Of a DNA stretch of 35,108 nucleotides, positions 13,606-34,082 are shown in pieces. Origin of the DNA: Terriglobia bacterium (GTDB lineage Bacteria > Acidobacteriota > Terriglobia > Acidiferrales > UBA7541); assembly GCA_020073585.1 (NCBI GenBank), contig JAIQEV010000040.1, positions 1-35,108 on the forward strand. Reading direction: 5' to 3'. Both the position numbers and the translations under genes were made by a program. The notes under the pieces are model-generated. The model did not search any database. It was not told where the DNA came from and saw only the letters and a program-made list of their open reading frames with translations. Each line of letters begins with the position of its first letter. Positions within the stretch are counted from its first letter, which is position 1.

Positions 13606-15354
13606 CTACATGGCCGGATAGGGGTAGCCGCGGGCCAGCACCTGTTCCAGGGCGGCGTCGTAGCCGTAGAGGTCGTCGAAGAAGCGGGCTTCGCCGGTTT
13701 CCGTGACGATGGCGGTGGCATAGAAGATGAGCACCGGGATGGGCGCGGCTACGCGCACGTGCTGGTTATCTTTGGTTTGTGTGGCCGCTCCGCGGTCAAT
13801 TGTTTGTGTGACCGCTAAGCGGTCAACGCCGCTGCGCATGGCGGCTTGCACCTTCTCCAGGTCCCAGCCGGGATTGTGGCGCAGGACCCAGGCGGCGAGC
13901 AGCGCGGGGTTTTCCACGCGGATGCAGCCGTGGCTGAAGTCGCGGCGCGCTTTGGAGAAAAGTTCCGTCTCCGGCGTGCCGTGCAGGTAGACGTCGTAGG
14001 AATTGGGGAAGAGGATCTTGACCCCGTCGAGAGCGTTCTTGGGGCCGGGGCGCTGGCGAACCTCGAGGGTGCCGGCCCGCAACTGGCGCAGAATGTCTGG
14101 GGTCAGCTCGCCGGTGAGGATCTCGCCGGCGTGGGTGATGACTTCGAAATCGTTCTTGGCGAAGTAGGCGGGATCTTTTTCGAGGGCGGGAAGGATCTCG
14201 TCGCGCTGCAGGGAAAACGGCACATTCCAGTAAGGGCGGAAGACAACCTCTTCGATGGTGTCGGCGAAGGCTGGGGTTTCATAGCCGTAGGCTTTGCCTA
14301 CGACGACGTTCATGGAGAAGGCCACGCCGAGGTTTTCATCGAAAGCGCGCAGGCGATATTCGGGAATGTTGACGACGATGGGGGGCTGGGCGAATTCGTG
14401 CGGGAGCCAGCGCAGGCGCTCGAGAGTGAGCTGGAACTGGCGGATGCGGCGCGCCAGCGGGGTATTGAGCTGGGCCAGGGTGTCTGGGCCGAGAAGGCCG
14501 TCGGGCTCCAGGCCATGGCGTTCCTGAAAGCGCTTGACGGCGTCCACCAGCGCGCCGCGGTAGATGCGGGTGAGCAGCGGGACGTTCGCTTCCAGGGGGA
14601 GATCGCCGAGCAGGCGCAGGAGCTGGGCCAGGCGCGGGAGGCCGGGATAGCGTGCACCGGGGCGCACGGCGCGCGCGGGAAGGGGCAGGAGTTCGCCGCT
14701 ATCGTTCCGGGCCAGGGCGAGGTAGTGCTGCAGGGCCTGCTGGATGCGGCGATAGACGGGGAAGGGCGGCTCGACGCCGGCAAGGACCGCTTTCACATCG
14801 GCGGCGCGCACGACACGCTCGCGGACGAACTCGGAGAGGTCGTATTTCTTGTGCTCGATGTCGAAGCCGAAATGGAAATAGCGCGGATTGACCTTGCCGA
14901 TGTGCAGGTCGGAGATGTAGCGCATGAGGCAGACGGTGACGGCGGCGTCGAAGCGTTCGAGATTGCCGGGGGTGGGCGACTGGCGCAGTTGCGCGATGCG
15001 CGCGGTCCAGCGCGGGCCGTCGTAGTCCTCGATGTTCAGCCCTTTGTCATCGGCGGAACGGAAGACGTCGAAGAGGGCCAGCGCCTGGGGAGTAGGCGCG
15101 GCGTTGGCGGACCAGGCGAGGGCGTAATTTGTGGGGAGGTAGAAATCGCGGAGATTGGAGCGATAGCCGGAAAAATCGGGCCAGCGGAGATCGTCGAGCC
15201 GCCCCGTGGCGACGATGGCGCGCAGGGTTGCGCCGGGCCCGGCGAGTTGCGGCGGGGGTTCCTGCGGAGCGGGCGCGGCTGCGCGTAAGGAGACGGGAGC
15301 CAGGCACGCCAGCAGGAGCAGGAAGAGCGACGGCGCCCGCGAGCGATTGCGCAT
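13606..15354 (-). CDS. L,D-transpeptidase (YcbB/LdtD-like) with peptidoglycan-binding domain
   Basis: The 582-residue exported protein has an N-terminal hydrophobic signal (FLLLLACLAP; the LLAC could also be a lipobox), a scaffold region, a PG_binding_1 domain (YRGALVDAVKRFQERHGLEP, about residues 260-315) and a YkuD catalytic domain. The YkuD motif is VYLHGTPE followed by FSHGCIRVENP with catalytic Cys477. Such enzymes make 3-3 meso-diaminopimelate crosslinks in the cell wall. A GTG at 15372 would lengthen it by six residues; ATG 15354 starts directly with the signal peptide. It lies 21 bases after the pgi stop, at the tail of the pentose-phosphate operon. Residues 510-528 are a nine-residue tandem repeat from an inserted palindromic element (see repeat). 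Confidence 0.88.
   Translation of the reverse strand: MRNRSRAPSLFLLLLACLAPVSLRAAAPAPQEPPPQLAGPGATLRAIVATGRLDDLRWPDFSGYRSNLRDFYLPTNYALAWSANAAPTPQALALFDVFRSADDKGLNIEDYDGPRWTARIAQLRQSPTPGNLERFDAAVTVCLMRYISDLHIGKVNPRYFHFGFDIEHKKYDLSEFVRERVVRAADVKAVLAGVEPPFPVYRRIQQALQHYLALARNDSGELLPLPARAVRPGARYPGLPRLAQLLRLLGDLPLEANVPLLTRIYRGALVDAVKRFQERHGLEPDGLLGPDTLAQLNTPLARRIRQFQLTLERLRWLPHEFAQPPIVVNIPEYRLRAFDENLGVAFSMNVVVGKAYGYETPAFADTIEEVVFRPYWNVPFSLQRDEILPALEKDPAYFAKNDFEVITHAGEILTGELTPDILRQLRAGTLEVRQRPGPKNALDGVKILFPNSYDVYLHGTPETELFSKARRDFSHGCIRVENPALLAAWVLRHNPGWDLEKVQAAMRSGVDRLAVTQTIDRGAATQTKDNQHVRVAAPIPVLIFYATAIVTETGEARFFDDLYGYDAALEQVLARGYPYPAM
13776..13826. repeat. Tandem 27-bp palindromic repeat inside the L,D-transpeptidase gene
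   Basis: Two units (13776-13799 and 13803-13826) of 24 bases, separated by TTG, differ at few positions. The second has the core palindrome GACCGCTAAGCGGTC (13810-13824, outermost base apart). On the coding strand the units give VDRLAVTQT and IDRGAATQT, a nine-residue repeat that stays in frame. A closely related copy occurs at 33648-33668 in the HAD phosphatase gene. Confidence 0.8.
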
Positions 15355-25574: not shown

Positions 25575-25662
25575 GCCCGGGTGGCGGAATGGCAGACGCT
25601 GAGGACTTAAAATCCTCCGGGGATTTTTCCTCATGTGGGTTCGACTCCCACCCCGGGCACCA
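25575..25662 (+). tRNA. tRNA-Leu (UAA)
   Basis: A class II tRNA is readable. The acceptor stem GCCCGGG (25575-25581) pairs with CCCGGGC (25652-25658). The anticodon stem GAGGA/TCCTC encloses the loop CTTAAAA with anticodon TAA at 25608-25610. A long variable arm follows, then a T arm GTGGG-TTCGACT-CCCAC. Discriminator A (25659) is followed by an encoded CCA (25660-25662). Confidence 0.95.
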
Positions 25663-32969: not shown

Positions 32970-33251
32970 ATCTGACCAGAGAGGCCCGCACAAGGCAAGT
33001 GCCCCTGCTCCGGAACGCGGCGCGGCCGGTCTTGCCGGGCCGTTCGCCGGGCCCCGCGCCGCGCATCTCGTTCGCTGCTAACCATTTACCACTTCTCCGC
33101 ATCCCATGAAAAGATCACCGGGCGTTTACGCAATTGCGCATGCCAATGATTAAAATAATGCGTGAGCGCATCTCCGCTTCCGCGGGTATCGTGAATGGCA
33201 TGGCGATCACCGCTGGCACAACGGCGGCGCCGGTTACCAAGGAGCTCTTCG

Positions 33252-34082
33252 ATGGCGGGGCAGTACCTGTTGGCGAGCGATTTTGACCAGACGCTGAGCT
33301 TCAACGATTCGGGCGTCGTTCTCAGCGAACTTATCGGTTTCCACGGCTTCCGCGAAAAGGTCGCCGGACTTTCCTACACCCATCTGGTGCAGCAGGGCGC
33401 CGAGCTCGCCTATCTCATCCTGCACGACCCGGATTTCCGCCGCGTGCGCCGCGAACACCTGGTGGAGACCGGGAAGCGCATGCGCCTGAAGCACGACGTC
33501 GCACTTTTCGCGCGCGCCCTGGATACCCTGGCCGAGGGCTACAAGTTTTCCTTTTACGTGATTTCCGCCGCGCCGCAGGAGATCATCCAATCGGCGCTGG
33601 AGGGTGTTGTGCCGCCGGAGCATATTTTCGGCACACGCTTCCGCTATGTTGACCCCTTAGCGGTCACCGCTACCGGCGGCGCGACCGGGGAAGTGCAGTC
33701 CATCGAGCGGGCCTCGGCCGGCTGGGGCAAAGTTACTGCGCTCGAGGAGATTCGCGCGGCGCTGGGCATCAGCCATGACCACATCATCTACCTGGGCGAC
33801 GGCAGCTCCGACCTGCCGGTGATGATGCACGTCAACCAGCACGACGGGCTGACCATCGCCGTCTCCGAGGCCCAATACATCACGCGCATCGCGCGCCGCA
33901 CCGTGCTCAGCGACAACGCGATGAGCGTCCTCGTCCCCGTGCTCGAGGACGTGCTGCGCTGGGATTCCGCGCAGATCCGCCGGGTCTTCGCCGGCTTTGG
34001 CTTCACTCTCCGCGAATGGGACAAGACCCGCACGGACATGCTCACCATCGAGGACGCCACCCCGCCCGCCGCTTCACCCTGA
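33252..34082 (+). CDS. HAD-superfamily phosphatase (SerB-like)
   Basis: The 276-residue cytoplasmic protein has the haloacid-dehalogenase motifs: nucleophile loop [10 protein letters not shown] near 9-18, motif [10 protein letters not shown] near 103-110, a motif III lysine in the [11 protein letters not shown] region, and motif [13 protein letters not shown] near 180-190. The helical cap and VISAA pattern resemble phosphoserine or small-metabolite phosphatases; the substrate is unknown. AAGGAG seven bases before ATG 33252 decides the start. Residues 133-139 (VDPLAVT) come from a copy of the palindromic repeat also found in the L,D-transpeptidase gene. The last nine bases overlap the end of the truncated murG on the other strand. 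Confidence 0.82.
33648..33668 (+). repeat. Copy of the coding palindromic repeat in the HAD phosphatase gene
   Basis: The 21 bases here match the coding strand of the L,D-transpeptidase repeat (around 13807-13827, minus strand) at 19 positions. Both are in the same frame relative to their host gene: VDPLAVT here, VDRLAVT there. The core is the palindrome GACCGCTTAGCGGTC with one changed base. Confidence 0.7.

Follow-up and report, generated by a model that had tools for sequence, protein, structure and literature searches.

Palindromic repeats that are read as part of proteins have been discussed for Rickettsia, where the original papers on the Rickettsia palindromic elements (RPEs) are reportedly those of Ogata and colleagues, and for Opitutus terrae (O. 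terrae below). Two reviews report in-frame palindromic repeats from Rickettsia and Wolbachia (PMC2229807, PMC10969869). REPs inside open reading frames are described in PMC3733652 from O. terrae, R. conorii, Thauera and others; over half of them occur as dimers or groups, encoding 20–30 residues, and the authors of that study suggest insertion into linkers or loops and the removal of inactivated genes. In the open-licence literature, no report was found of in-frame palindromic repeats in Acidobacteriota. Here, a 35,108-nucleotide stretch from a Terriglobia bacterium (contig JAIQEV010000040.1; hereafter the window) is analyzed together with its genome (G000) and 36 genomes of the genus in all, of which G009 is the closest relative at hand. 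A small palindrome is found in frame in two unrelated genes of the window and in some hundreds of copies in the genome.

Inserts in two genes of the window

The 20-mer GTTGACCGCTTAGCGGTCAC, at 13808–13827 on the minus strand, lies on the coding strand of an L,D-transpeptidase gene, where it matches exactly and is followed by a diverged tandem copy, and a copy with one mismatch occurs at 33648–33667 (+) in a gene for a HAD phosphatase (Table 1). Both occurrences had been described in an earlier note on this DNA and are borne out here; the transpeptidase insert, which that note placed at 13776–13826, is where it was said to be and is slightly wider, covering 13774–13827. None of 100 shuffled versions of the window contains a match to the 20-mer. 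The two copies are read in the same codon phase, as VDRLAVT and VDPLAVT, again as reported earlier. Around the 20-mer extends a palindromic unit of 27 bp, GTTGACCGC-TTC-GCGGTCACRCATACA, of which it forms the core. The only RNA gene found in the window is a tRNA-Leu (anticodon taa) at 25575–25662, and Rfam at gathering thresholds likewise gives a tRNA alone.

Table 1. Positions of the two host genes, their repeat units and the adjoining target in the window
Feature	Position	Strand	Basis
YcbB-like L,D-transpeptidase gene, 588 aa	13606..15372	-	Pfam Scaffold, PG_binding_1, YkuD; YcbB chains in PDB; genus orthologues
First 27-bp unit GTTGACCGCTTAGCGGTCACACAAACA, encodes VDRLAVTQT	13801..13827	-	Exact match; profile score 36.5
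Second, diverged 27-bp unit ATTGACCGCGGAGCGGCCACACAAACC, encodes IDRGAATQT	13774..13800	-	Profile score 21.8; 27-bp length difference to G009
Target pentamer right of insert: AAAGA (G009 AAGGA; empty G018 allele GAGGA)	13769..13773	-	Codon-level filled/empty comparison
HAD-family phosphatase gene (PF12710)	33195..34082; start may be 33252 (gene finder)	+	Pfam; matches in 34/36 genus genomes
27-bp unit, one stem base broken, GTTGACCCCTTAGCGGTCACCGCTACC, encodes VDPLAVTAT (residues 152-160)	33648..33674	+	Profile score 25.5

In an alignment of 10 full-length transpeptidases, which come from nine genomes (another two matches, both partial, were excluded), the G000 protein carries 18 extra residues (two units), that of G009 carries nine (one unit) and the other eight carry none. 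At the codon level, the empty allele of G018 reads GGT-GGA-GAG-GAT and the filled allele of G009 reads AGC-GGA-[27 bp]-AAG-GAT. For the phosphatase, 30 loci from the 34 genomes with a match were aligned; the nine-residue insert is found only in G000 and G009, with identical DNA in the two, and is missing from all 28 other genus orthologues shown. Empty relatives read, for example, TAC-AAC-GAA, where G000 reads TAT-[27 bp]-GGC-GGC. The peptide is therefore an insertion in both proteins, and orthologues without the palindrome are also without the peptide, which shows that, as had been proposed, a REP-like unit has entered both of these unrelated genes in frame. A second, partial copy of the phosphatase gene (99 residues, 97% identical) is situated at a contig edge, G000:C16:2-298, suggesting a strain mixture in the bin.

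The earlier note had also placed both peptides where related proteins appear to have a loop, and AlphaFold models of the two window proteins support this placement. In the model of the transpeptidase, built on the 10-sequence alignment (mean pLDDT 75.9), the insert (residues 516–533) has pLDDT below 50 and is predicted to lie between a helix and a strand; a solved YcbB chain, 6ntw, has a gap at this position. In the model of the phosphatase, for which no relative was found among solved structures at E 0.01, the insert lies in the turn between strands 144–151 and 166–172.

The repeat unit, its copies and its target

A profile of the unit was built from 799 kb of G000 (40 stretches plus the window) and 1.19 Mb of G009 (60 stretches); the G000 stretches had been picked where exact copies were listed. 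The consensus is GTTGACCGCTTCGCGGTCACRCATACA, with a sharp left edge and no conservation of the left flank, and the 27 bp comprise a stem of 7 bp, a loop of 3 nt and a short tail rich in A and C. The hairpin that it forms as single-stranded DNA has a folding energy of about -7.5 kcal/mol. In 144 of 262 units the loop reads GAA on one of the strands, and at least 157 units have a GNA loop on that strand. GCGAAGC is an extraordinarily stable DNA mini-hairpin, and GNA loops form its class, according to PMC4686876; the commonest loop of the unit, read on one strand, gives GCGAAGC.

Set to a threshold of 14, the profile picks out 283 units (reversed sequence gives 8), and the 283 form 204 arrays (137 single, 57 double, 9 triple and one of five). 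The period between neighbouring profile units (n=79) is 27 in 72 cases, 26 in six and 28 in one. Exact tandem pairs read from lists for whole genomes have period 27 in 39/45 cases in G000, 28/32 in G009 and 3/7 in G005. The period-26 minority looks like a subtype, seen at G005:C301 and C394 and in some pairs of G000 and G009; its spacer in G005 is like ACTTGAA.

In G000 (4.03 Mb, 113 contigs), TGACCGCNNAGCGGTCA matches 310 times forward and 302 times reverse when up to two mismatches are allowed, where the reversed pattern gives 6 and 7; TGACCGCNNAGCGGTCA is near-palindromic, and the forward and reverse counts mostly score identical places. A palindromic family is thus present many times in one genome, so that the 20-mer, whose absence elsewhere would have spoken against the earlier proposal, is amply represented. 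At up to one mismatch, forward matches number 232 in G000, 248 in G009 and 93 in G005, and 0–18 in the remaining 33 of the 36 genus genomes; 25 genomes outside the genus have 0–2 forward and 0–3 reverse. The host acidobacterium and G009 thus hold roughly 250–300 copies each. A draw of 396 genomes of the phylum, G000 included, yielded one other rich genome, G276, with 77 forward matches, and at most 7 on both strands summed in the rest. G276 (loci L386-L394) belongs to another class of the phylum; there a similar palindrome is mixed with CGACCGCGGAGCGGTCG versions and has longer common flanks, some contigs end at or near the repeats, and the tail 'ACAGANGATAG' resembles some of the 27-bp units. 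The architecture of the palindromes inspected is unlike that of the G000 unit, and G276 looks like a separate REP-rich genome.

The position of the unit between the two close genomes could be compared for 34 of 95 G000 arrays and 36 of 109 G009 arrays (overlapping sets). Among the 34, the length difference is zero in 16, +27 in eight, -27 in two (one of which is a flanking indel) and another value, from 7 to 55 bp, in eight; steps of 54 and 81 are also seen from the G009 side. The differences that are not multiples of 27, such as 45 bp in a gene for a desulfurase-like protein, come with other small indels around. Two of the 16 zero-difference sites, the arrays L203:2540 and 2660, were kept although they lie in a possibly chimeric tract: the first 4.2 kb of L203 (G000:C29:1-4215) is 99.95% identical to G009, where the rest reads at about 85–93%. 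A second version of this region is found in G000:C26 (L091), pointing to a chimeric contig, a mixed bin or a recent exchange.

The right edge of the arrays is marked by a short motif. Among 183 arrays scoring at least 20 in the sampled stretches, purine-NN-GA directly follows 89, and it is found at 13 of 14 other offsets in only 3–11; the exception is offset -3 (37/183), which overlaps the tail of the unit. The fourth place of the target is G in 154 of the 183. In the empty alleles corresponding to L074:3867 and L083:7662, AGAGGAT and GAGGAAG stand exactly where the filled allele resumes; at the desulfurase site, most of the empty alleles compared carry C instead of the expected target G when read on the same strand as the unit. 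The similarity between the 5' pentamer of the unit and the right flank does not exceed that of shuffled pairs (472/2000 reach the observed value), giving no sign of a target-site duplication, and none is visible in the empty/filled pairs; the combination of terminal inverted repeats and target-site duplication that defines a MITE is not found for the unit.

Intergenic arrays favour divergent spacers by count (46/134 arrays vs 211/974 spacers, not weighted by length). Where a gene on the same strand lies to the right, its start is within 20 bp in 20 of 88 cases and exactly 12 bp away in eight, a spacing that would be expected if the ribosome-binding AGGA serves as target. The arrays at L083:384-434, L083:7662 and L074:3867, among others, stand immediately before the ribosome-binding site of the gene that follows and may alter translation of that gene.

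We regard it as probable that the unit is a non-autonomous mobile palindrome of 27 bp that inserts beside purine-NN-GA and persists in genes as a tolerated passenger. At many sites units, single or tandem, are present in one genome and absent from another in steps of 27 bp, and about half of the arrays stand directly 5' of purine-N-N-G-A, often RAGGA, which several empty alleles already contain. In the mechanism that we propose, the unit would move as a folded single strand that an enzyme cuts and joins. The first five bases of the unit, GTTGA, themselves match the target, and arrays with period 27 would accordingly arise by the landing of new units beside older ones. Most insertions in genes would be harmful and purged, and the survivors would be near-neutral passengers in flexible loops, not selected peptides. 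Points against this reading are the several length differences between G000 and G009 that are not multiples of 27, the lack of a full purine-NN-GA beside about half of the arrays and the missing target G in the empty alleles of the desulfurase site.

As to the enzyme, none that mobilizes the unit was found, and the alternative that fares best, unlikely as it is, holds that the unit is a classical REP mobilized by a RAYT (TnpA-REP, a Y1 transposase). Its size, hairpin and genome-wide copy number are REP-like, G000 has one Y1_Tnp gene above the Pfam cut-off, and clear units lie beside two of three such genes in G009 and one of nine in G005. However, the profile of 281 copies shows no GTAG or CGTC tag, no unit is found within the 4.6 kb read around the G000 gene, and the neighbourhoods of the remaining ten of the 13 Y1_Tnp genes in the three genomes hold no clear unit, so that the arrangement of a REPtron is not seen (two of the ten hold a weak match, score 14). 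The four arrays in 71 kb around the 13 genes amount to about the general density, by a hand estimate. Across the 36 genomes the numbers of Y1_Tnp genes and of units do not run in parallel (15/0 in G034, 0/18 in G025, 1/232 in G000), and the G000 protein is only 67% identical to its nearest relative in G009, with similar genes (59–66%) in unit-poor genomes.

Copies in genes and their reading frame

The in-gene behaviour of the unit was followed on gene calls from a home-made codon-usage gene finder (80% coding). Of the 183 arrays, 32 lie inside predicted genes, 13 across a gene end and 138 between genes. Many of the 32 are near predicted ends (13 within 50 residues of the N terminus, 7 of the C terminus), where the choice of start is possibly wrong, and two doubtful ones were kept, in L277 (54 aa) and at L228:12074, whose G000 counterpart scores only 15. 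With four sites common to G000 and G009 removed by hand, there are about 28 distinct sites in about 27 genes of the two genomes. Pfam was run on 20 of the host proteins, of which 18 match at E 0.001, one of these 18 only marginally; the matched hosts include isocitrate lyase, LptD_N, a DEAD-box helicase, Amidase_3 and a cysteine-desulfurase-like aminotransferase of class V, as well as GyrB, TilS, GH57 and X-Pro dipeptidyl-peptidase. The GyrB gene (L268:11633-14068, G009) has a unit in the antisense frame near its predicted N terminus, which reflects either true coding or a wrong start.

Orthologues of three more of these genes, up to 30 loci each, were compared across the genus. Isocitrate lyase has an 18-residue insert in G000 only; none of the 24 other rows covering the site has it, that of G009 among them, and L308, one of the 24, carries a short extension there that is unrelated. 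In the desulfurase-like protein, 15 extra residues are found in G000 alone, and 29/29 other rows lack them. TilS has nine extra residues in G009 and none in G000, at a linker of variable length. In alignments with two solved isocitrate lyases and two solved cysteine desulfurases, the solved chains show gaps where the inserts lie. In the five genes compared, window genes included, the unit is thus present in frame in unrelated conserved genes and absent from orthologues.

Four of the six reading frames through the unit are open. Of the 32 in-gene arrays, 23 are read in the sense frame VDRFAVT, seven in the antisense frame DREAV and one in each of the two other open frames. In predicted genes, the phase of RAGGA would direct 50.2% of insertions into the sense VDRFAV frame, 30.7% into the antisense DREAV frame and 6.5% into the two frames that contain stops. 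The 28 distinct sites (19, 7, 1, 1) fit this expectation (p 0.32) and do not fit equal use of frames (p 5e-6). Looser targets fit less well: p is 0.11 for RNGGA and 0.001 for RNNGA counted equally. With a position-weighted target profile trained on the 138 intergenic arrays, stop frames take only 11–14% and the VDRFAVT frame is in excess (19/28 vs about 8–10 expected; p 0.0001–0.007 by profile width). Neither this weighted profile nor equally counted RNNGA reproduces the observed frames.

Since 27 is a multiple of three and RAGGA in genes is mainly read [A/G]AG-GAN (Lys/Glu-Asp/Glu), most landings are in frame and free of stops; the commonest possible landing in a gene reads VDRFAVTHT. The recurring VDR(F/L)AVT and its stop-free frame are largely explained by the target and the 27-bp length. 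These two also explain the greater part of the in-frame behaviour, and some preference for VDRFAVT may remain beyond them. The shared frame pointed out in the earlier note is real, and is mostly a consequence of target and length rather than by itself a sign of selection on the peptide.

The earlier note had gone further and called the repeat domesticated, which would mean that the VDR(F/L)AVT insert is kept for a useful role in the proteins. The excess of the VDRFAVT frame over the profile-based null and the identity of the phosphatase insert in G000 and G009 speak for this second alternative, which we nevertheless consider improbable. Genes contain 7009 RAGGA motifs and intergenic sequence 2057, and with 32 and 138 arrays, respectively, copies in genes are depleted about 15-fold per target, or 12- to 15-fold with the weighted target. 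Domestication thus overstates the case, and tolerated mobile DNA fits best. The many different host genes, the gains limited to one species (isocitrate lyase, the desulfurase-like protein and probably TilS), the unequal copy number in the transpeptidase and the predicted position of both modelled inserts in loops of low or lowered confidence also argue against a retained peptide. No sign of a function of the inserted peptide was found. Stems are neither more decayed nor better kept in genes than between them (mean 6.55 vs 6.58 of 7 pairs).

A third alternative, that the arrays result from tandem slippage or local duplication of pre-existing sequence with no mobility, appears very unlikely. It draws on the exact period of the tandem arrays and on adjacent units being slightly more alike than random pairs (0.806 vs 0.756; spacer alone, 0.599 vs 0.422), as well as on the longest listed array, G000:C106:1200-1378, which holds at least seven near-identical 27-bp units and where local duplication is likely. 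Against it, two-thirds of the arrays, 137 of 204, are single units at different places, and the orthologous sites of relatives are empty. Neighbouring units show about 5 differences over their 27 places, and only 4 of 79 pairs have exactly the same spacer, so that insertion beside an older unit fits better than recent slippage. Finally, chance similarity, or a peptide conserved in both protein families, could appeal to the stem mismatch in the phosphatase copy and is refuted by the shuffles and by the orthologues of both proteins (28/28 and 8/8) that lack the peptide.

Returning to the mobile palindrome, a bolder form of this reading, to which we give somewhat less than even credence, is that of a minimal mobile codon cassette: a 27-nt single-stranded hairpin that would insert itself precisely 5' of RNNGA through an enzyme other than a RAYT and be built to survive in genes. 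Such a cassette would keep adding nine-residue loops to the proteome, often at Lys/Glu-Asp/Glu dipeptides, which tend to be exposed.

Comparison with described systems

In-frame mobile palindromes are best known from intracellular bacteria, and intragenic REPs have been reported from some other species. The host acidobacterium is presumably free-living and reaches the same result with a unit that is very small. Two close species among 36 genomes of the genus provide empty sites at base level and hence a direct test of why the copies are in frame; a target motif and a length divisible by three may nearly suffice, without selection on the peptide. The inserts in isocitrate lyase, the L,D-transpeptidase, TilS and the cysteine-desulfurase-like protein also offer a natural series of nine-residue loops for work on insertion tolerance.

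The parallel with RPEs drawn in the earlier note holds for their in-frame behaviour in genes. The palindromes of Rickettsia and Wolbachia are likewise found both between genes and in frame in unrelated, apparently functional genes, where they are apparently tolerated (PMC2229807, PMC10969869). However, those elements are stated there to measure 105–146 bp or about 150 bp, and these sizes set them apart from the acidobacterial unit, which has 27 bp, is often tandem and is GC-rich.

The GTAG and CGTC REPs, as described in PMC3733652, resemble the unit in being hairpins of 20–40 bp that are mostly intergenic, GTAG stems having 6–13 bp and loops often of 2–3 nt. Their superfamilies are defined by the tag (PMC3733652), whereas the 27-bp unit has neither GTAG nor CGTC beside its hairpin. 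The same study reports that neighbouring units are opposite in many REP families and that REPs favour unidirectional and convergent spacers (PMC3733652); by contrast, the 27-bp unit forms direct tandems with one main period and is over-represented, by count, in divergent spacers. The visible target motif on the right-hand side is a further feature of the unit, unlike GTAG/CGTC REPs.

The IS200/IS605 family and TnpA-REP, described in part in PMC8266576, resemble the unit in three respects: a hairpin formed by a single strand, the lack of a clear target-site duplication and a short motif beside one end. Unlike in IS200/IS605, the motif of the unit lies at a distance of 8 nt from the stem and has the form TCNNY when the opposite strand is read, and no Y1 transposase is linked to the unit. 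In-frame palindromes and intragenic REPs are thus already known; what is new is a small, often tandem unit with a visible target and with empty sites resolved to the base.
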